Part shown: piece by piece, positions 5,160 through 36,790 of the stretch
Layout of the letters: each line of letters starts with the position of its first letter
How positions within the stretch are numbered: the stretch's first letter is position 1
Virus record (IMG/VR): IMGVR_UViG_3300034375_011170
Coordinates: 1 to 59,111 of that record
Reading direction: 5' to 3' (one strand)
DNA: 59,111 bases
Source: a virus
Notes under the pieces: generated by a model
What the model was told of the DNA's origin: nothing
The model's input: the letters and a program-made list of their open reading frames with translations, nothing else
Databases searched by the model: none
Position numbers and translations under genes: made by a program

Positions 5160-5189
5160 GTAGGTCACGATGTTGGCGCATCTACCTAC
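5160..5189 (+). promoter_or_regulatory. leader hairpin of homing endonuclease gene
   Basis: GTAGGT (5160-5165) pairs with ACCTAC (5184-5189), and inside it GATG (5169-5172) pairs with CATC (5179-5182). It lies between the late motif and the coding start. Confidence 0.5.
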
Positions 5190-5217
5190 TCTAGAAATAC
5201 AAAGGGAGATTTCCAGC

Positions 5218-5826
5218 ATGAAACTATTTATTTGTCAATTCTGCGGCAGGGAAACAACTAATCCTGGTGCCAATAAAAAACATGAGATTGGTTGTAGGAA
5301 TAACCCAAATTCAAAAATTTGTGGCGGTAATAAAAAAGGGTATGTTCCTTGGAATACTGGAAAAGTGGGTGTACAAACTGCTTGGAATAAGGGTAAACCT
5401 GGAACATTTAGAGGTAAGAAACACACAGCAGAAACCAAAAGAAAGATGTCTGAGAGCAAAAAAGCATTATACGCTACTGGATGGGAGTGTATCGCTGGAA
5501 GATGTCCAAAATATGATTATGAGTCCCCTATTGCCGGAAAGATAAAGGTAGATGGTAGTTGGGAATTGGCATTTTGTGAATTTGCTGATAAAATGCAATT
5601 AAACTGGGAAAGAAATAAAAAACGTTTTCCGTACACTAAACCAGATGGAACTAAATCTACGTATCAACCAGATTTCTATGTAAAAGAATTAAAGTCTTAT
5701 ATTGAAGTCAAAGGATATGAAACAGATTTAGATAAGGCTAAATGGGAACATTTTCCCGAAAATCTGATAGTGCTTCGAAAGAAAGAAATCGGTGGGTTGG
5801 ATGAGTGGTTTGCTAAACCGTCATAG
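5218..5826 (+). CDS. homing endonuclease, NUMOD3 plus VSR-like nuclease
   Basis: 202 residues. An N-terminal zinc finger has C7, C10 and a distal H/C pair (KHEIGC). Residues about 50-85 hold NUMOD3 DNA-binding motifs (WNTGK, WNKGKPG, GKKHTAETKRKMSESKKA). The C-terminal half resembles VSR/PD-(D/E)XK homing nucleases: YQPDFYV and YIEVKGY supply the acidic and Lys residues. The start at 5218 follows GGGAG; an earlier ATG at 5170 lies inside the leader hairpin. The last 36 nt form the 5' part of tRNA-Ser(GCT). It separates two halves of a tRNA. Confidence 0.82.
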   Translation: MKLFICQFCGRETTNPGANKKHEIGCRNNPNSKICGGNKKGYVPWNTGKVGVQTAWNKGKPGTFRGKKHTAETKRKMSESKKALYATGWECIAGRCPKYDYESPIAGKIKVDGSWELAFCEFADKMQLNWERNKKRFPYTKPDGTKSTYQPDFYVKELKSYIEVKGYETDLDKAKWEHFPENLIVLRKKEIGGLDEWFAKPS

Positions 5827-5870
5827 GATTAAAAGTTCTATCGAGGGTTCGAATCCCTCACTCACCGCCA
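5791..5870 (+). tRNA. tRNA-Ser (GCT) with reduced D-arm
   Basis: Acceptor GGTGGGT/ACTCACC, anticodon loop TTTGCTAA in GTGGT/ACCGT, variable arm ATAG/CTAT, T-arm GAGGG/CCCTC, GCCA end. Only 7 nt separate acceptor and anticodon stems, so no normal D-arm can form in this fold. The 5' half is also the end of the endonuclease ORF. Confidence 0.65.
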
Positions 5871-6728: not shown

Positions 6729-7796
6729 ATGAGTAAAAAAGAATTTGACCTGTTGGTCTTTATCGGTCGTTTTCAACCATTTCATAATGGACATCAGGCC
6801 GTTATTGATGAAGCTCTAAAGAGAGCGGACGAAGTATTAGTTATCATTGGTTCATGTGGTGGACCAAGAACAATACGAAATCCATTTACATACGGAGAAC
6901 GACATGCGATGATTCGTGCATCCAATGATGATGCTTACGAAGATGGTCGTTTATGTATTGATGGTGTGGATGATTATCCATATAATGACAGTAAATGGCT
7001 ATCAGAAATTCAATTGATTATTGATGATGATACTAACCTTTCTAATTGTAATCGTAATCTAAATAACCTTGACAATCCTAAATGGATTAAGAAGGTCGGG
7101 TTGATCGGTCATTCAAAAGATAATACTTCATACTATTTGAAAATGTTCCCAGGAATGGATTCGGTTGCAGTTTCTGATTACAAAGGCATCAATGCAACTA
7201 ACATTCGTGAAGACTTGCTATCCTTCCCCAATGAAAAATATTACAAACGTGATATGCCAAATCCTGCACAAAAAGTGATTGAGAATATTATCAATAAAGA
7301 CTATTGGGCACTTTTAAAGCAAGAATATGAAATGATCCAAGAGTATAAGGATTCATGGAAATATGCACCTTATCCTCCTACATTCGTTACCACTGATGCG
7401 GTAGTAATTCAATCTGGACACATTCTACTTGTACGCCGAGGTCATGCACCAGGAATTGGTCAATGGGCTTTGCCTGGCGGATTTTTAAATCAAACAGAAA
7501 CTCTACTTGACGGATGTATTCGAGAACTGCGAGAAGAAACTCGTTTGAAAGTTCCTGCACCAGTATTGAAAGGTTCTATCAAGGGACAACATACGTTTGA
7601 TGACCCAAATCGTTCATCACGTGGACGCACTATCACTAATGCTTTTTACTTTGAATTAACACCTATGGAAGAATTACCAAAGGTCAAGGGTTCAGATGAT
7701 GCAATTGAAGCCAAATGGTTTAAATTGAGTGAACTGGATAGTAAGGTGATGTTTGAGGATCACTACGGAATTATTGACTACTTTGTTGGTCTTTAA
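6729..7796 (+). CDS. nadM: bifunctional NMN adenylyltransferase / Nudix hydrolase
   Basis: 355 residues. The N-terminal half is a nucleotidyl transferase: FIGRFQPFHNGH at residues 11-22 is the HxGH-type signature and GINATNIRE near 155 matches the second motif. It makes NAD+ from NMN and ATP. The C-terminal domain has a Nudix box, GGFLNQTE then RELREETRL (about 256-280), which may cleave ADP-ribose or related compounds. This fusion is known in bacteria and T4-like phages such as KVP40. AAAGGAG precedes the start. NadV follows 50 nt downstream, completing a two-step nicotinamide-to-NAD+ route. Confidence 0.9.
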   Translation: MSKKEFDLLVFIGRFQPFHNGHQAVIDEALKRADEVLVIIGSCGGPRTIRNPFTYGERHAMIRASNDDAYEDGRLCIDGVDDYPYNDSKWLSEIQLIIDDDTNLSNCNRNLNNLDNPKWIKKVGLIGHSKDNTSYYLKMFPGMDSVAVSDYKGINATNIREDLLSFPNEKYYKRDMPNPAQKVIENIINKDYWALLKQEYEMIQEYKDSWKYAPYPPTFVTTDAVVIQSGHILLVRRGHAPGIGQWALPGGFLNQTETLLDGCIRELREETRLKVPAPVLKGSIKGQHTFDDPNRSSRGRTITNAFYFELTPMEELPKVKGSDDAIEAKWFKLSELDSKVMFEDHYGIIDYFVGL

Positions 7797-7846
7797 TAAA
7801 AATCCTAACAAAGAGTTAGGTAACATAAACTTTAGAGGAGTTCTAA

Positions 7847-9163
7847 ATGAAACAATCAATTTTATTGAATACTGATAGCTATAAAGCATCAATGTTTGTA
7901 CAATATCCACCAAAAACCGAGGCGGTATATTCTTATATTGAATCTCGTGATGGAAAATATAATGAGCTAGTATTCTTTGGCCTACAGGCTTTTATTAAAG
8001 AATACTTGTCAGATCCAATTACACAAGAAGATATTGACGAAGCAGAAGCAATTTGGACTGCACATGGAGAACCTTTCAACCGTTCTGGTTGGGAGTATAT
8101 CCTAAATGAACATGATGGATATTTGCCAGTGGAAATCAAGGCTGTTCCCGAAGGAATGCCAGTCGCTATTCATGATGTGATGCTCACTATTGAAAACACA
8201 GACCCAAATTGCTTTTGGTTGACTACTTATCTTGAGACCGCACTTCTTCGTGCTATCTGGTATCCAACTACAGTTGCTACCAACTCGCGAGAAATTAAGA
8301 AGCTGATCGCAAGTTATATGGATAAGACTTCTGATAGCCGTGAAGGATTGGTGTTTAAACTCCATGACTTTGGTGCAAGAGGAGTGTCGTCAAATGAAAG
8401 CGCAATGCTTGGTGGTATGTCACACTTGATTAACTTCATGGGTACAGATACCATTGTTGCCACTCTTGGTGCCAGAAAATACTATGGCGCAGATATGGCT
8501 GGATTTTCTATTCCGGCGGCTGAACACTCTACTATCACTTCGTGGGGTAAAGAGAATGAAGTCGAAGCATATCGCAATATGGTAAAACAGTTTGGTAAAC
8601 CTGGAGCGTTAGTGGCAGTGGTATCGGATAGCTATGATATCTATAATGCCGTGGAAAATCTCTGGGGCGAAAAACTAAGGCAAGAAGTTATTGATTCAGG
8701 TGCGACAGTTGTTGTTCGCCCCGACTCTGGTATTCCTTGGAAAGTTGTCCGTGATACCGTTAAACTTTTAGATAAGAAATATGGGAGTACAAAAAACTCA
8801 AAGGGATATCGTGTGTTAAATAACGTCCGTGTAATTCAGGGTGATGGTGTTGATTATGAGGCTATTGATAAAATTCTACAGACACTATTCGTCAATAGGT
8901 ATTCTGCCGATAATGTGGCATTTGGTATGGGTGCAAACCTTTTAAGTACATCTCAAAGAGATGATCAGAAGTTTGCCATGAAGTGTTCTGCTGCAAAGGT
9001 TGATGGCGTATGGCGAGACGTATTCAAAGACCCTATTACCGATCCTGGTAAGAAGTCTAAAAAAGGTCGATTTGATGATCCAAGACTTAAGCGTGTATTC
9101 TATAATGGAAAACTTGTTCGTGAAACCACTTTTGATGAGGTTCGACAAAATGCCATGCTATAA
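7847..9163 (+). CDS. nadV: nicotinamide phosphoribosyltransferase
   Basis: 438 residues, typical for NAMPT/NadV. It converts nicotinamide and PRPP into NMN. Recognisable segments are LLNTDSYKASMFVQYP at the N-terminus, KLHDFGARGVSS near 172, AEHSTITSWG near 228, VVVRPDSGIPW near 292 and AFGMGANLLS near 363. It is paired with the upstream NMN adenylyltransferase. Phage NAMPT/NMNAT pairs are known to restore NAD+ depleted by defence NADases; that role here is inferred. Confidence 0.93.
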   Translation: MKQSILLNTDSYKASMFVQYPPKTEAVYSYIESRDGKYNELVFFGLQAFIKEYLSDPITQEDIDEAEAIWTAHGEPFNRSGWEYILNEHDGYLPVEIKAVPEGMPVAIHDVMLTIENTDPNCFWLTTYLETALLRAIWYPTTVATNSREIKKLIASYMDKTSDSREGLVFKLHDFGARGVSSNESAMLGGMSHLINFMGTDTIVATLGARKYYGADMAGFSIPAAEHSTITSWGKENEVEAYRNMVKQFGKPGALVAVVSDSYDIYNAVENLWGEKLRQEVIDSGATVVVRPDSGIPWKVVRDTVKLLDKKYGSTKNSKGYRVLNNVRVIQGDGVDYEAIDKILQTLFVNRYSADNVAFGMGANLLSTSQRDDQKFAMKCSAAKVDGVWRDVFKDPITDPGKKSKKGRFDDPRLKRVFYNGKLVRETTFDEVRQNAML

Positions 9164-12426: not shown

Positions 12427-12433
12427 AAACTTC

Positions 12434-12462
12434 TTTACTTTTTATGCTAGATATACTATAAT
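12434..12462 (+). promoter_or_regulatory. early-type promoter for the second tRNA block
   Basis: TTTACT 12434-12439, 17-nt spacer, TATAAT 12457-12462. About 120 nt of non-coding leader separate it from tRNA-Ile(GAT). Confidence 0.85.
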
Positions 12463-12489
12463 ATATCTATAAGTTGATAAAAAAGGAAA

Positions 12490-12586
12490 TTAGCAAGGTA
12501 AGCTCGCAAGTTAGATACTCGGTTAGAGTGAAGGATGCGGGAGATTGTTAGGGATGAGTGGACGGGATCGCCTAGCAAATTATTAT
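12490..12586 (+). ncRNA. non-coding leader of the second tRNA block
   Basis: No ORF. It contains ACTC-GGTTA-GAGT hairpin and the motif GCTCGCAAG, which recurs at 14141, 14200 and 14333 in the large structured RNA downstream. It might be a small relative of that RNA. Confidence 0.35.
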
Positions 12587-12660
12587 TGCCCTATAGCTTA
12601 ATGGGAAAGCATTCGACTGATAATCGAAAGACCGAGGATCGTTACCTCGTAGGGCAACCA
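12587..12660 (+). tRNA. tRNA-Ile (GAT)
   Basis: Acceptor TGCCCTA/TAGGGCA, anticodon loop CTGATAA in TTCGA/TCGAA, CCA encoded. The T-loop reads ATCGTTA, which is non-canonical. Confidence 0.87.
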
Positions 12661-12665
12661 AGTAT

Positions 12666-12741
12666 GGACCCTTAGCTCAGTTGGAAGAGCATCTGACTTT
12701 TAATCGGAAGGCCGTGAGTTCGAATCTCACAGGGTCTACCA
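12666..12741 (+). tRNA. tRNA-Lys (TTT)
   Basis: Acceptor GGACCCT/AGGGTCT, anticodon loop CTTTTAA in TCTGA/TCGGA, CCA encoded. Confidence 0.93.
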
Positions 12742-12746
12742 ATTTT

Positions 12747-12820
12747 TGATTCGTGGTGAAGTGGTATCATAGCTGACTTTGACTCAGTTGTCGGAGGTTC
12801 GAATCCTCCCGAATCATCCA
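12747..12820 (+). tRNA. tRNA-Gln (TTG)
   Basis: Acceptor TGATTCG/CGAATCA, anticodon loop CTTTGAC in GCTGA/TCAGT, CCA encoded. Confidence 0.92.
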
Positions 12821-12844
12821 AAAATAATGGGCGGAAGGATTGAG

Positions 12845-12949
12845 ATGGGAAAGGCTACGTATAAACATTGCGTATGTGAATTGTGTGGTAAAAAAGTTGT
12901 TTTGGATAAACATAATTTAGATTGGGAAAATATAAAGAAGTTAATTTGA
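12845..12949 (+). CDS. 34-residue Cys-pair protein
   Basis: Starts MGKATYKHCVCELCG. Cys9, Cys11 and Cys14 could be half of a zinc-binding site. GGAAGG precedes the ATG. It sits between tRNA-Gln and tRNA-Ile. Too short to assign. Confidence 0.45.
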   Translation: MGKATYKHCVCELCGKKVVLDKHNLDWENIKKLI

Positions 12950-12958
12950 TTGTTTTGT

Positions 12959-13049
12959 AGTCCCTTAGTTTAATGGTAAAACACCCGTCTTATAAGCGGC
13001 ACCGTCTCCAGATTAGAGAGCGATATGGGTTCGAATCCCATAGGGACTA
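12959..13049 (+). tRNA. tRNA-Ile (TAT), long variable arm, no CCA
   Basis: Acceptor AGTCCCT/AGGGACT, anticodon loop CTTATAA (TAT, reading AUA), T-arm ATGGG/CCCAT. A hairpin TCTC/GAGA lengthens the variable arm, unusual for Ile. The end reads ACAA rather than ACCA. Complementarity continues outward to 12949 and 13058, making a 17-bp acceptor extension. Confidence 0.75.
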
Positions 13050-13063
13050 CAAAACAATTAAAA

Positions 13064-13093
13064 GCGACAGATCGTAACCCAGGTCGCCTACCA
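13064..13093 (+). other. small hairpin ending in ACCA
   Basis: GCGAC (13064-13068) pairs with GTCGC (13083-13087) and is followed by CTACCA. It resembles an isolated acceptor end or a tRNA relic. Confidence 0.35.
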
Positions 13094-13138
13094 AAATACG
13101 AAAGAGAAAAATGCATATAACTTGAAATGATTTGTCAA

Positions 13139-13146
13139 TATAAATA
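13139..13146 (+). promoter_or_regulatory. T4-type late promoter motif in tRNA array
   Basis: Exact TATAAATA, 7 nt before tRNA-Met. It could allow late transcription of the 3' tRNAs and the large structured RNA. Confidence 0.5.
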
Positions 13147-13153
13147 AAGTTGA

Positions 13154-13229
13154 CGCAGCGTGGAGAAGTGGTTATCTCGCCATCCTCATAAGTTGGAGAT
13201 CGTAGGTTCAAATCCTACCGCTGCCCCCA
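13154..13229 (+). tRNA. tRNA-Met (CAT), possible initiator type
   Basis: Anticodon loop CTCATAA. The first acceptor position is an unpaired C-C, and lack of a 1-72 pair is an initiator feature. D-arm GAGA/TCTC, T-arm GTAGG/CCTAC, CCA encoded. The anticodon stem has one T-T mismatch. Ile2 identity is also possible. Confidence 0.8.
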
Positions 13230-13237
13230 AAAAATAT

Positions 13238-13313
13238 GTTGGTGTAGTGTTAATGGCTAGCACGTCAGTCTCCAAAACTGAAAGTTCGGGTTCGAGTCCT
13301 GGCACCTTCGCCA
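13238..13313 (+). tRNA. tRNA-Trp (CCA)
   Basis: Anticodon loop CTCCAAA in CAGT/ACTG, discriminator G (expected for Trp), CCA encoded. The acceptor GTTGGTG/CACCTTC has two T-T mismatches. Confidence 0.87.
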
Positions 13314-13343
13314 TTTTTTTAATAAGAATTTTGTTCGTTTTGC

Positions 13344-13415
13344 TGGATAGTAGCACAATGGCAGTGCAGCTGACTGTTAATCAGCAGGTTGTTGGTTCGA
13401 GTCCAACCTATCCAG
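13344..13415 (+). tRNA. tRNA-Asn (GTT), no encoded CCA
   Basis: Acceptor TGGATAG/CTATCCA, D-stem GCAC/GTGC, anticodon loop CTGTTAA in GCTGA/TCAGC, T-arm GTTGG/CCAAC. The end reads GCAA, not GCCA. Pairing continues outward so 13333-13349 matches 13409-13425. Confidence 0.85.
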
Positions 13416-13430
13416 CAAAACGAATAATTC

Positions 13431-13506
13431 GCTGTTATAGCTCAATTGGAAGAGCAGCTGTTTTGTAATCAGCAGGTTGTGGGTTCGATTCCTACTAACA
13501 GCACCA
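13431..13506 (+). tRNA. tRNA-Thr (TGT)
   Basis: Acceptor GCTGTTA/TAACAGC, anticodon loop TTTGTAA, CCA encoded. One T-T mismatch at the end of the anticodon stem. Confidence 0.9.
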
Positions 13507-14399
13507 TAAATAAATTGCGAGGTATAGCTCGCTTGTCCCATGATCTTCGGGTCATGGGAATAGGGTAAGACTGGTAACAGTCCCAAAGGCAGGTTTCCTA
13601 TAAACTGCCGCCAGCAATGGTCCTTCTATACAAGCTCAGAGTGGAGTTGACTCGGTTGATAGCCGAAAGCAACTCGTTGTCAGTAGAATGGCAATAGTGG
13701 AGCAAGGTAGAATTGTAGTCCGAAAGGATGTGACCGGAGCCAATCGGTGAGGTCTAATTGACTGTGGTGGTGAAGCTACGATTAACCAAACTACCGAATC
13801 TTACACTCAATGAGTAGTTACTGAGTTTGACCATTAGCGTGGAAAGGCAAAGTAGCATTACAAGAGTTGAAAGGGTAGGACCTGGAAACTTGAAGTATCG
13901 TTTAGTATCCCGCAAGGAGAAAGACAGGTGATGTGTTGTATTTTGTATCCCAAAAGGATATGAAGCAACTGGAGTGGCACATCACAGTAGGTTCGCAAAT
14001 TAGCTCATTTGGTAGAGCAAAAGACGCATAATCTTTAGGTAGTGGGTTCAAATCCTGCATTTGTTTAAAAAGCAAAGTCTACTCCGGTACGTCATTAAAG
14101 ACGCTTAATACCATACTCGTAAGGGAATATGGTGCATTGAAGCTCGCAAGGCGGATGTGTTTGTTTGGAAAGAAAACGTAAACTCTTAGCGGAGTTGAAC
14201 TGCTCGCAAGGCAGGCGGAAGATTGAAAGACGAGTAGTGACGTATGACACAGGAAATGCCACCTGTATAAAAAGGCAGCGTTGGAAGATACTGTATTAGT
14301 GTTCCACACAATGCAGTGGATACGTAGAGAACGTGGCTCGCAAGGCTTACGATAATGCTACAAAAGACTTCCATCTTATGCTATAATCTCAGGCTAGGC
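13507..14399 (+). ncRNA. large ornate structured RNA, GOLLD/ROOL-like candidate
   Basis: About 0.9 kb with no credible ORF, rich in stable hairpins. Examples: CCCATGATC-TTCG-GGTCATGGG (13537-13558), GACTG-GTAA-CAGTC (13569-13582), GGCAG/CTGCC (13588/13605), GTGATGTG/CACATCAC (13929/13979) and TATCC-CAAAA-GGATA. GNRA or UUCG loops and the motif GCTCGCAAG recur. A tRNA-like domain is embedded at 13994-14066. Giant RNAs of this kind (GOLLD, ROOL) are known in phages beside tRNA genes; class membership needs a covariance search. Confidence 0.6.
13994..14066 (+). tRNA. tRNA-Met-like domain inside the large RNA
   Basis: D-arm GCTC/GAGC, anticodon stem AAAGA/TCTTT with loop CGCATAA (CAT), T-arm GTGGG/CCTGC with TTCAAAT, acceptor GCAAAT/ATTTGT. 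Position 33 is G rather than the universal T, and no CCA follows, so it is probably not a working tRNA. Confidence 0.5.
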
Positions 14400-14513
14400 A
14401 AAACTATCTTAAAAGATACACTGTGGGCTAACTAGTAACGCCGTTGCAGTAAAATGCGAGACGATAACGATTGTAAGTGCAAATCTTACCAGTGTATCTC
14501 TTAAGATAGTTTT
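14400..14513 (+). ncRNA. tRNA-like element in a long inverted repeat
   Basis: 14400-14412 pairs with 14501-14513 (13 bp) and AGATACACTG (14414-14423) pairs with CAGTGTATCT (14490-14499), with one mismatch between them. Inside are GGC/GCC and a T-arm GTAAG-TGCAAAT-CTTAC. The anticodon arm is irregular (TTGCA/TGCGA). No CCA. Confidence 0.5.
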
Positions 14514-14515
14514 AA

Positions 14516-14590
14516 AGCGGAATGGTGTAGTAGTAACATTTCTGTCTCATAAGCAGAAGATCGTAGGTGCAAATCCTACTTCCGCATCCA
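14516..14590 (+). tRNA. tRNA-Met (CAT)
   Basis: Anticodon loop CTCATAA in TCTGT/GCAGA, D-stem GTGT/ACAT, T-arm GTAGG-TGCAAAT-CCTAC, CCA encoded. The 1-72 pair is A-A. It shares the unusual T-loop with the preceding tRNA-like element. Confidence 0.83.
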
Positions 14591-14605
14591 AAAAATAAAA
14601 CGATA

Positions 14606-14633
14606 AAAAGGGGTTTACTTTCAGCCCCTTTTC
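14606..14633 (+). terminator. terminator overlapping the next promoter
   Basis: AAAAGGGG pairs with CCCCTTTT around an 11-nt loop. The -35 TTTACT of the next promoter lies in the loop, so the end of the tRNA/large-RNA unit and the next start are fused. Confidence 0.65.
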
Positions 14634-14642
14634 ATATATAAT
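14614..14642 (+). promoter_or_regulatory. early-type promoter
   Basis: TTTACT 14614-14619, 17-nt spacer, TATAAT 14637-14642, then the shared leader TTATAAATTGA. Confidence 0.83.
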
Positions 14643-14670
14643 CAACTTATAAATTGAAATAAGGTTTGTT

Positions 14671-14931
14671 ATGAAAGTTGAACACGTTGTTTGGAAATTT
14701 GGTAATAAGATGCCAACCACTGGCTTAATTCGAGCCAAAATTACATTTTACACAATAGATGTAATGGGACAATACGAGTCTATGAATTTGGTCGTTACCG
14801 GTTCTATTAACCATGGCGATTATCCATACGACAGAGCACAAAGGATTACCTTTCCTGGTGGAAAGGTAGAAATCGATACTAATGGAGTAAAATCTATTCA
14901 GATTTTGGCTGTTGGTGAAATTACTGAATAA
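14671..14931 (+). CDS. unknown protein
   Basis: 86 residues, starting MKVEHVVWKFGNKMPTTG and rich in beta-type sequence. First gene of a unit reaching at least 18279. No family recognised. Confidence 0.7.
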   Translation: MKVEHVVWKFGNKMPTTGLIRAKITFYTIDVMGQYESMNLVVTGSINHGDYPYDRAQRITFPGGKVEIDTNGVKSIQILAVGEITE

Positions 14932-15879: not shown

Positions 15880-16088
15880 TGACTTACAAAGAAATACTAC
15901 GATATGTCAACGAGGCATATTATGATTTAGATTATGGTCGGTCTGATAATGCAAAATTAAAAGACGACACCAGAAAATATCTTAACCAATCTATGTATTG
16001 GTTAGAAGAACTACGTTCAAAACTGAAAAAGGAAATTGATAATGAAAAAGATCCTGCTACCTCTAATTCCCGTGGGAATGATTCTTAG
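15879..16088 (+). CDS. small helical protein
   Basis: 69 residues, starting MTYKEILRYVNEAYYDLDYG, charged and helical. Coupled upstream by TGATG and overlapping the SPFH gene downstream by 47 nt. Confidence 0.6.
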   Translation: MTYKEILRYVNEAYYDLDYGRSDNAKLKDDTRKYLNQSMYWLEELRSKLKKEIDNEKDPATSNSRGNDS

Positions 16089-16941
16089 CCTATCAGGCTG
16101 TGTGGGAGAACGAGTGGAAGTGCCGCCTGCATCGGTAGGTATGATTCTTGGTAAAAATGGATATCAAGGAGATTTAATTCCACCGAGTCGGTTTCGTCTA
16201 CCTTTCTGTTGGGTAAATTGTGATAAACTTGTTGTGGTTGAAGCTTCTGACGTTGGTATGAAAGAAGAAATGACTGTGCTTATGCCGCAAGATAACTTGG
16301 ACTTGGGAATTGATGTTCGTTTCACTCTTGCCTTGACTGAAGATAAAACACAGATTATCTCGGTGTTTGATCGAGTTGTACCTGTCCGTTTGGACAGTGG
16401 AAATTACGGCACAACCCTGGCCAATATCTATACAGTATACGGCCAATCAGTGGTTCGTAATGTTGTTCGTTCAACTCTTTCGGAATATTCAATCGCTGAA
16501 ATCGCTGCTAACCAATCAGCAGTATCTGAACGACTTCGACAAGAAGTATCAGGTGCCCTGAAGAAAACTCCCCTGGAAGTTAAACAATTCGGGCTGGCAA
16601 ATATCAAATTTCCATCAGTAATTACCCAGGCTCGTGAAGCCGCTCAATCCCGTAAGATTGACGTAGAACGTGCTGAAGCTGACGCTCAGGTTAAAATTCG
16701 TGAGGCCCAGGCTCGTCTTGAAGTAACACGAGCGGAACGGGAAGCTGACCTATTGGCAGCACAAACAATTGCCGAACAAAATCAAATTTTGGCCGAAGGT
16801 GTGACACCAGAAGTTCTTCGCTATATGGAGTTAGAAGTTTTGAAAGAAATGGCCAAAAATAAGAATGCGGTATTCTTCCCTGTTGATATGATGGGATCGA
16901 TTGGTCTTCAAAATAAAATCTTTAATGGAGCTAAACAGTAA
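16042..16941 (+). CDS. SPFH/prohibitin-like lipoprotein
   Basis: 299 residues. Starts MKKILLPLIPVG and has a lipobox LSGC with Cys20, so it is probably lipidated. The body is a band-7/SPFH fold: VPPASVGMILGKNGYQG, then DVGMKEEMTVLMPQDN, then a long charged helix (residues about 195-245, rich in A, E, R). Such proteins form membrane rings and scaffolds. AAGGAAA precedes the ATG, chosen over an upstream TTG. It ends in TAATG coupled to a two-segment membrane protein and then PstS. Confidence 0.78.
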   Translation: MKKILLPLIPVGMILSLSGCVGERVEVPPASVGMILGKNGYQGDLIPPSRFRLPFCWVNCDKLVVVEASDVGMKEEMTVLMPQDNLDLGIDVRFTLALTEDKTQIISVFDRVVPVRLDSGNYGTTLANIYTVYGQSVVRNVVRSTLSEYSIAEIAANQSAVSERLRQEVSGALKKTPLEVKQFGLANIKFPSVITQAREAAQSRKIDVERAEADAQVKIREAQARLEVTRAEREADLLAAQTIAEQNQILAEGVTPEVLRYMELEVLKEMAKNKNAVFFPVDMMGSIGLQNKIFNGAKQ

Positions 16942-17316: not shown

Positions 17317-18279
17317 ATGAAAACAATCCTAGCAACAATCCTACTAACAACTACTGCATTGACCGCAAGTGCGAATGATATTCGTATTGTTGGATCATCT
17401 ACAGTATTCCCCTTTGCTTCGGCCGTGGTCGAACAGTTTTCTAACAAAACTGGAATGAAAGCAACAATTGAATCTACTGGTTCCGGAGGAGGATTCAAAC
17501 TATTTTGTTCCGGTGTTGATGAAGATACTCCTACCATTACCAATGCTTCTCGACGTATCAAAGATAAAGAGGTAGCACTTTGTCGGGATAATGGCGTGAC
17601 CGAAGTAACTGAATATAAAATTGGTTATGACGGTATTGTTTTGATCGGAAATATCGGCGGTTATGATATGGAGATTACCAACGAAGATTTGTTCTTTGCC
17701 CTGAACTCAACGATCAAATATGCCGGAGAAACCGTACCAAATCCCTATACCAATTGGAGTGATGTTCGACCAGGCCTGCCCGATATTCCAATTGCTGTTA
17801 TGGGCCCACCACCTTCGTCTGGTACACGAGATGCCTTTGAAGAATTGGTGATGGAACCAATTGCCAAGGCTTTTGACCTACATGTTGAACTTCGAGAAGA
17901 TGGTGCCTATATTGAAGCCGGAGAAAACGATAATCTTATTGTCGAGAAAATCTCAAAAGATGACAATCTTTTTGGTATTGCTGGATTTTCATTCTTAGAT
18001 CAAAATTATGAGAAAATTAAAGGTGCGGTTATCAATGGTGTTGAACCAACCTACGATAATATTGCCGACGGCATTTATCCTGTTTCTCGTTCGTTGTGGT
18101 TTTATGTAAAAAATGATCATAATACCGTTATAGATGGTGTTGAAGATTACGTAAATGAATTTACTGATGAATCTACGTGGGGGCCTGATGGATATCTCGC
18201 TGACCTTGGATTGATTAGTCTTCCAGATGCAGAACGTGTTGCTCCTGAATTTGGTGTCACTAACGGTAAATTCCAATAA
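17317..18279 (+). CDS. pstS: PstS-like phosphate-binding protein
   Basis: 320 residues. A signal peptide (MKTILATILLTTTALTASA) leads to a periplasmic protein. IVGSSTVFPFA near residue 24 and TIESTGSGGGFKLFCSG near 51 are the phosphate-loop signatures; GPPPSSGTRDAFEEL near 166 completes the binding site. It captures phosphate for the host Pst transporter. PstS genes are known auxiliary genes of marine T4-like phages. It is the last gene of the unit, followed by a strong terminator. Confidence 0.9.
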   Translation: MKTILATILLTTTALTASANDIRIVGSSTVFPFASAVVEQFSNKTGMKATIESTGSGGGFKLFCSGVDEDTPTITNASRRIKDKEVALCRDNGVTEVTEYKIGYDGIVLIGNIGGYDMEITNEDLFFALNSTIKYAGETVPNPYTNWSDVRPGLPDIPIAVMGPPPSSGTRDAFEELVMEPIAKAFDLHVELREDGAYIEAGENDNLIVEKISKDDNLFGIAGFSFLDQNYEKIKGAVINGVEPTYDNIADGIYPVSRSLWFYVKNDHNTVIDGVEDYVNEFTDESTWGPDGYLADLGLISLPDAERVAPEFGVTNGKFQ

Positions 18280-36060: not shown

Positions 36061-36089
36061 TTTACTTCTAAACTAAAATTAAATATACT
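36061..36089 (+). promoter_or_regulatory. early-type promoter of tmRNA
   Basis: TTTACT 36061-36066, 17-nt spacer, TATACT 36084-36089. Confidence 0.82.
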
Positions 36090-36090
36090 A

Positions 36091-36098
36091 TATAAATA
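36091..36098 (+). promoter_or_regulatory. T4-type late motif before tmRNA
   Basis: Exact TATAAATA, immediately after the early -10. Together these could give tmRNA expression throughout infection. Confidence 0.55.
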
Positions 36099-36099
36099 A

Positions 36100-36392
36100 T
36101 AAGCGGATTTGATTATCAGATTCTAAAAGTTATTCAGGACACGGGGGCAGTTCCCGTCGTCTCCACCAGAAGAGTATTGGTTATCAGGGTTGGAATAAAC
36201 CTGGTGTAATAGATTTTCCAAACGTCCAGTACTCTTTTGATGGGGACGATTCAGGTTCGACTGGTAATAAGTAAGTTCTCTGTAGAATACGCTATTTAAA
36301 AATAAATGCTAACGATAACTTCAAAGCATTTGATTACGCCTTAGCTGCGTAATCATTGGGCGGCCACTGCCTCGAAACAGAAGTGTGGCATT
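36100..36392 (+). ncRNA. ssrA: circularly permuted (two-piece) tmRNA
   Basis: The acceptor piece comes first: T-arm ACGGG-GGCAGTT-CCCGT, acceptor strand CGTCTCC and ACCA (to 36168). A spacer folds by a 10-bp stem, AGAGTATTGG (36171-36180) with CCAGTACTCT (36226-36235). The coding piece starts GGGGACG at 36242 and pairs perfectly with the acceptor strand. The tag reading frame at 36308-36352 encodes ANDNFKAFDYALAA and stop, an alphaproteobacterial-type degradation tag. A GCCAC/GTGGC hairpin closes the 3' side. Outer ends are approximate. Confidence 0.93.
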
Positions 36393-36421
36393 ATTTCCTA
36401 AAATTTTATGAAAGGTTTAAC

Positions 36422-36790
36422 ATGAAAACATTTTTGATTGCAACTACTGCATTGGTAGTTTCAACAACAGCAGCCTTGGCTGGTGGAATGCAACCAGGCG
36501 TTTGGTCTGGTGAGGCTTTTGCAGAATATGGGGTAAATGCCCAAGATGTAACACTTGGAGGCGGTGTTGCTTATGATATCAACTCAGTTAGCTTGTGGAC
36601 TGAAACTGAACTTCAAGTAGCTCAAGAAGTTGATTTGACTTTGAGTGATGTTACCTTTGGTGCAGATTATGCAATTCTACCTCAAGTAGATGCGTATATG
36701 GCATTTGAGTTTGCTGGTAATCCAGATGCAGCTAATGGTCTTGGGGTTGAATATAATGAAACTTCAATTGGCCTTCGCTACGAGTGGTAA
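36422..36790 (+). CDS. small secreted, outer-membrane-like protein
   Basis: 122 residues. A clear signal peptide (MKTFLIATTALVVSTTAALA, 20 residues) leads to a mature protein of alternating polar and hydrophobic strands (VTLGGGVAYDI, LWTETELQVAQ, IGLRYEW) ending in an aromatic residue, as in small beta-barrels. It might alter the host surface, for example in superinfection exclusion; that is inference. AAAGG precedes the start, and upstream codons lie in the tmRNA. Confidence 0.65.
   Translation: MKTFLIATTALVVSTTAALAGGMQPGVWSGEAFAEYGVNAQDVTLGGGVAYDINSVSLWTETELQVAQEVDLTLSDVTFGADYAILPQVDAYMAFEFAGNPDAANGLGVEYNETSIGLRYEW

Follow-up and report, generated by a model that had tools for sequence, protein, structure and literature searches.

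A viral DNA of 59,111 nucleotides (IMG/VR record IMGVR_UViG_3300034375_011170; hereafter the window) encodes an ordinary full-length phage GOLLD RNA of 879 nt on its plus strand, at positions 13517–14395, and we hold this assignment of identity and anatomy with high confidence. The RNA is a new representative of a known family. Its linker contains a tRNA-like domain (13994–14066) that, judged from its sequence, is most likely non-decoding, and it is followed at 14400–14513 by a second tRNA-like element, which appears to be a variant within an apparently undescribed family of stalked RNAs.

The Rfam GOLLD model (RF02032) matches 13928–14395 on the plus strand over all 416 model positions, with 224.5 bits (E 2.6e-62), exceeding the gathering cut-off of 150 bits by 74 bits. 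The sequence-only reading of this region, which proposed a GOLLD- or ROOL-like candidate, therefore named the correct family. Its further suggestion of a divergent member or a new class is unneeded for an RNA that is full-length, strongly covarying and far above the cut-off, and its ROOL alternative finds no Rfam match in the window at gathering cut-offs, nor in 12430–14700 up to E 1. The low DNA identity to isolates (22% of the query was covered by blastn) might by itself suggest a giant RNA class unrelated to GOLLD, yet the full-model match refutes this idea, to which we assign virtually no probability. Because the Rfam model spans only the conserved 3′ half of the RNA, represented here by the 3′ domain at 13928–14395 (model positions 1–416), the test of the 5′ half relied on comparison with relatives. 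The variable 5′ domain (13517–13927, plus strand) is homologous to that of other phage GOLLDs, with blastn identities of 69–75%, and covaries with them, bringing the total length above 800 nt. As had been claimed, the region lacks genes: frames within 13507–14513 are mechanical, 40–76 aa long, mostly antisense, and none is convincing. Relatives likewise show no conserved ORF; in the named phages the GOLLDs are nearly unannotated save for tRNA features in the linker, and small hypothetical proteins touch GOLLD in a few records, none of them common between records.

The dense pairing noted in this region is beyond chance, as demonstrated by covariation in homologues. In a full-length MAFFT alignment of the window with 12 other phage GOLLDs (13 phages, consensus by RNAalifold), 110 of the 142 consensus pairs show at least one double change that keeps the pair. 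The first hairpin (13517–13532, plus strand) has the stem GCGAG/CTCGC and the loop GTATAG, which pairs with CTATAC at 13626–13631. This hairpin is misplaced in the first MAFFT alignment, and its pairing was therefore checked by a separate script that demanded full complementarity between loop and partner. Across GOLLDs, loop and partner covary in at least seven combinations: GTATAG/CTATAC, GCATGA/TCATGC, GCTTAG/CTAAGC, GTATGA/TCATAC, GTGTAG/CTATGC, GCTTGA/TCAAGC and GTTTAG/CTAAAC. What is informative about this pseudoknot is that the hairpin recurs in most relatives with different letters, yet similarly spaced and again ahead of AAGC. Folding of 886 nt as a single sequence is only mildly better than that of shuffles (z −2.15; 1 of 20 shuffles was equally good), so the proof lies in comparison and not in folding energy. 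The boundaries were set at 13517–14395 because the covarying first hairpin marks the 5′ end; the 3′ end is that of the Rfam match. Within the interval 13507–14513, initially described as one RNA of about 1 kb, 14400–14513 is an element separate from the GOLLD.

The GOLLD lies in a phage tRNA array, with 23 tRNA calls in the window between 3.5 and 14.6 kb. The last real tRNA upstream is tRNA-Thr(tgt) at 13431–13506, and ARAGORN calls a tRNA-Met(cat) downstream at 14516–14590, both on the plus strand. The closing terminator of the sequence-only reading exists as a terminator-like hairpin, AAAAGGGG...CCCCTTTT (14606–14632, plus strand, −12.1 kcal/mol by folding), but it stands beyond this tRNA-Met and outside the interval that it was said to close. 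The hairpin is not among the calls of a terminator scan, and a promoter scan gave sites no more numerous than in shuffles. Between 37.7 and 57 kb the window encodes proteins matching phage ssDNA-binding, tail tube and baseplate families, and the nearest relatives of its baseplate wedge protein among isolates, at about 35% identity, belong to Caulobacter phage Cr30, Stenotrophomonas phage vB_SmaS-DLP_6 and Sinorhizobium phages phiM12/phiM19. On these matches and wedge relatives, the phage looks like a T4-like myovirus, possibly with an alphaproteobacterial host. The phage also encodes an alpha-type tmRNA (36062–36443; both alpha and permuted models match) with the tag ANDNFKAFDYALAA, and a tmRNA match near GOLLD occurs in the GOLLD phages MAL1, MD18, XacN1 and phiCbK. 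Adjoining the tRNA array at 6729–9163 is an NAD salvage pair, with adjacent genes for NadM-Nudix and nicotinamide phosphoribosyltransferase; host-like genes encode a Band 7 protein (16039–16941) and a protein resembling phosphate-binding proteins of the PBP superfamily (17317–18279). At 5791–5867, Rfam reports a tRNA (36.3 bits) without an ARAGORN call, overlapping the end of a NUMOD3-containing ORF (5170–5826), possibly a homing endonuclease beside a tRNA. The ORF-poor stretch at 12470–12586, directly before tRNA-Ile(gat), is possibly structured, and no homologue of it was found among the loci fetched for comparison.

A first survey added 26 further phage contigs or genomes with GOLLD, among them MD18 and DSS3_MAL1, records related to the NadM-Nudix protein of the window, and IMG/VR contigs found by pattern. 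The sample is therefore biased toward relatives of this protein and toward the motif. GOLLD was later found in Caulobacter phiCbK-like phages, Xanthomonas phage XacN1 and a Pseudomonas plasmid. The last, the 909-kb plasmid CP136011 of Pseudomonas sp. FeN3W, carries two GOLLDs about 450 nt apart, the second with a tRNA-like linker; this record possibly represents a phage-like element. The GOLLDs of phiCbK, Swift, BL57 and Karma are annotated only as tRNA-Gly or tRNA-Lys, which corresponds to the linker element. Two scans were discarded: the pattern AAAGGNGTAATCTCAGNCT returned 8 chance matches and no GOLLD, and a pattern for the GOLLD 3′ domain returned 37 chance matches and no GOLLD in the bacterial genomes scanned.

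The tRNA-like domain that had been noticed inside the RNA is the element at 13994–14066 (plus strand), located in the unpaired insert, or linker, of the GOLLD model. ARAGORN calls it tRNA-Met(cat), and Rfam also calls it a tRNA with 47.3 bits. It lacks three features of a functional tRNA-Met, namely a 7-bp acceptor stem, CCA (encoded in its neighbours) and U33: its terminal acceptor pair is mismatched (C·U), CCA is absent, and the anticodon loop is CGCATAA, with G33. Parsing of 27 GOLLDs yielded eighteen distinct forms of the linker element, for which 74 class I tRNAs located at the same loci but outside GOLLD served as controls. All seven acceptor pairs are present in 0/18 linker elements against 56/74 control tRNAs (P 1.5e-9), and CCA is in place in 0/18 against 61/74 (P 3.5e-11); the controls that fall short are mostly initiator tRNAs or were misfitted by the parser. 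The 18 forms retain the D-arm, anticodon stem and T-arm, of which the T-arm motif was demanded by the parser and carries no evidential weight. The anticodon stem has a mean of 4.83 of 5 pairs, compared with 3.29 in composition shuffles (0 of 2000 reach it), and its pairing is kept across many different sequences through compensating changes. The loops are 7 or 8 nt long, with 16 different sequences among the 18 forms. The idea that G33 marks linker elements in general was rejected, because 15 of the 18 retain U33.

It is already known that tRNAs are sometimes present in the GOLLD linker (PMC12286853), and Kretsch et al. 2025 raise the possibility that the cage holds such phage tRNAs (PMC12286853). 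This proposal, together with the ARAGORN and Rfam calls, would fit a working tRNA gene that is excised from its transcript, with GOLLD serving as tRNA cargo or storage. We consider this very unlikely, because all 18 forms lack CCA and a complete acceptor stem and their anticodon loops are erratic at 7–8 nt, and because no transcript could be detected from the pseudo-tRNA of a Mycobacterium GOLLD (PMC6582537).

The phiCbK-like phages illustrate how fast the loop can change, as their linker elements are identical outside it. The loop is CTCTTAA in Karma, Swift, Magneto and RBC57, CGTCCTA in phiCbK, Ccr10, Ccr29, Ccr32 and S2L, and CATCCTA in BL57. Between phiCbK and Swift, 5 of the 7 loop bases differ, compared with none elsewhere in the element and 0.2% of the remaining 3′ domain; the 26 real tRNAs that are orthologous between these two phages differ at a single loop base out of 182 (Fisher test against the GOLLD loop, 6.6e-8). 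A second case is provided by contig G130 compared with G121, G116 and G122, where the anticodon stem differs by 42% and the loop by 25% in an otherwise identical element. Such turnover is strong evidence for a loss of decoding constraint. As evidence for diversifying selection it is weaker, since a single replacement event may have produced all five changes.

A serious alternative, which we place a little short of even probability, is a decayed tRNA that persists only as a spacer and whose loop drifts neutrally. It would account for the GOLLDs that have no such element (those of CM1, V10, DSS3P8, G014, G118 and XacN1) and agrees with the disordered linker of GOLLD env-38 (PMC12286853). It does not explain why the anticodon stem is maintained by compensating changes, nor does drift predict loop changes that outpace the local background between phiCbK and Karma (1.8% over 3.3 kb), although a single replacement is compatible with it. 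In the functional scheme that we propose instead, GOLLD would be transcribed within the tRNA array and, by analogy with env-38, would probably form a hollow cage of RNA in the infected cell. The linker domain, which keeps the tRNA elbow and anticodon stem, would stay in the cage RNA without being matured into tRNA, because a substrate with a shortened acceptor and no CCA should be poorly processed by the tRNA maturation machinery. The cage would then present many copies of a tRNA mimic whose fast-changing anticodon loop may bind or distract host proteins acting on tRNA, such as anticodon nucleases activated by infection. This idea derives from the finding that anticodon nucleases are countered by phage tRNAs evolved to have altered anticodon loops (PMC10264068), a contest that changing-loop mimics would suit. 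We regard the decoy role as possible but rather doubtful; the neutral spacer is about equally likely, or likelier. A non-decoding linker domain with a changing loop narrows the GOLLD question to which tRNA-acting protein is concerned, and the presence of GOLLD in phiCbK-like phages makes that question testable in Caulobacter crescentus, a host in standard laboratory use.

The tRNA-like hairpin that had been placed at the end of the RNA is indeed present at 14400–14513 (plus strand), as an element separate from the GOLLD. It folds into a 23-bp stalk with one A·C mismatch and a tip bearing a D-like arm, an arm with a GTAAAA loop and a T-arm (TGCAAAT). Its folding is far better than that of shuffles (z −5.15; 0 of 200 as good), and Rfam reports no tRNA there up to E 1. 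Contig G103 carries a 79% identical copy 7 nt behind its GOLLD, and homologous tips occur at two further loci (L343 and L345), away from GOLLD within the fetched stretch; the L345 tip scores as a tRNA in Rfam with 37.6 bits. Among these four homologues, double changes occur in 6 of 29 pairs. Blastn against isolate phages gave no match. The best explanation of the element is a second non-decoding tRNA mimic.

A pattern search of IMG/VR revealed related elements with a common stalk. The canonical form, 5′-CAUUACUUUGAUGAUACACU / AGUGUAUCUUCUAAGUAAUG-3′, has about 20 bp with two U·U mismatches around a GA/UC doublet. The outer stalk pairs vary with compensation. Identity of the inner stalk follows from the search pattern, which prescribed that sequence; the first scan did not constrain the 5′ U of the outer mismatch, yet every match listed from it has U there. 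Stalk strands with 58–88 free bases between them gave 25 stretches, and a longer gap gave 5 more. The total is 31 distinct elements, with inserts in 23 unrelated clusters; stalked elements occur in the window, at L345 and L343 and at L347–L374. In the element of the window, the inner 9 bp are kept, and A-U pairs and one A·C occupy the positions where others have U·U. Owing to this deviation, its membership rests mainly on the inner stalk and on the insert, which is homologous to inserts of canonical members.

All 31 elements have the same orientation as the tRNAs around them; 21 begin at most 15 nt from a tRNA 3′ end and 18 end at most 30 nt before the next tRNA. Inserts ending in a T-arm number 6 of 27, compared with 0.09 expected in shuffles. 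At L345 (362–990), four stalk copies follow one another with different inserts, and an imperfect inverted repeat with a variable centre could also be a DNA recombination site resembling an integron attC rather than an RNA. The uniform strand, the positions directly after (21) and directly before (18) a tRNA, and the double changes seen in both the stalk and the tRNA-like insert make this unlikely. It is probable, we believe, that an undescribed stalked RNA family exists in phage tRNA arrays. Rfam at gathering cut-offs found only tRNAs at 11 stalk loci, the family having no Rfam entry, and a limited literature search found no description of it. Some stalk-bearing contigs contain GOLLD and most do not, these contigs being fragments. 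Short blastn in phage isolates gave weak matches of 17–25 bases, none on both stalk strands, and the stalk pattern was not found in ten GOLLD-bearing or reference records, phiCbK and T4 included. More tentatively, these RNAs may be modular, with a strongly conserved stalk that exchanges unrelated structured inserts, several of them tRNA-like, and is freed at its ends by tRNA processing; together with the GOLLD linker and its fast-changing anticodon loop they may form a battery of tRNA mimics directed at host defences that act on tRNA, a reading we favor only to a limited degree.

Among known systems, GOLLD env-38 is the closest reference, an 833-nt RNA whose cryo-EM structure is a closed cage of 14 chains with the linker inside (PMC12286853); expression of other GOLLD members rises in lytic growth (PMC12286853). 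The RNA of the window shares with env-38 the two domains, the variable linker, all 416 model positions, a length of about 830–880 nt and a location beside phage tRNAs. It differs in that its linker holds a tRNA-like domain, whereas that of env-38 is 42 nt long and disordered (PMC12286853). Compared with the GOLLDs of isolates, its primary-sequence identity is low. The Caulobacter phages phiCbK, Karma, Swift and BL57 have a corresponding tRNA-like domain in the same position, but with other anticodon loops, and no stalked element was found in phiCbK. The pseudo-tRNA of Mycobacterium aubagnense (PMC6582537) is likewise a degenerate tRNA within a GOLLD, a single case there, whereas the loss pattern and loop turnover were measured here over many phages. 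ROOL is also a giant phage RNA near tRNAs and forms cages (PMC12286853), and it is distinguished by the lack of an Rfam ROOL match in the window. The stalked element would be a second, apparently unreported small-RNA family in phage tRNA arrays, in a setting shared with T4 rnaC (species 1) and rnaD (species 2), small stable RNAs of the phage tRNA cluster (PMC3014915, PMC9697503). T4 has no GATACACT/AGTGTATC stalk and no sequence similarity was established, but rnaC, too, ends in a T-arm (CCGGGTTCGAATCCCGG).
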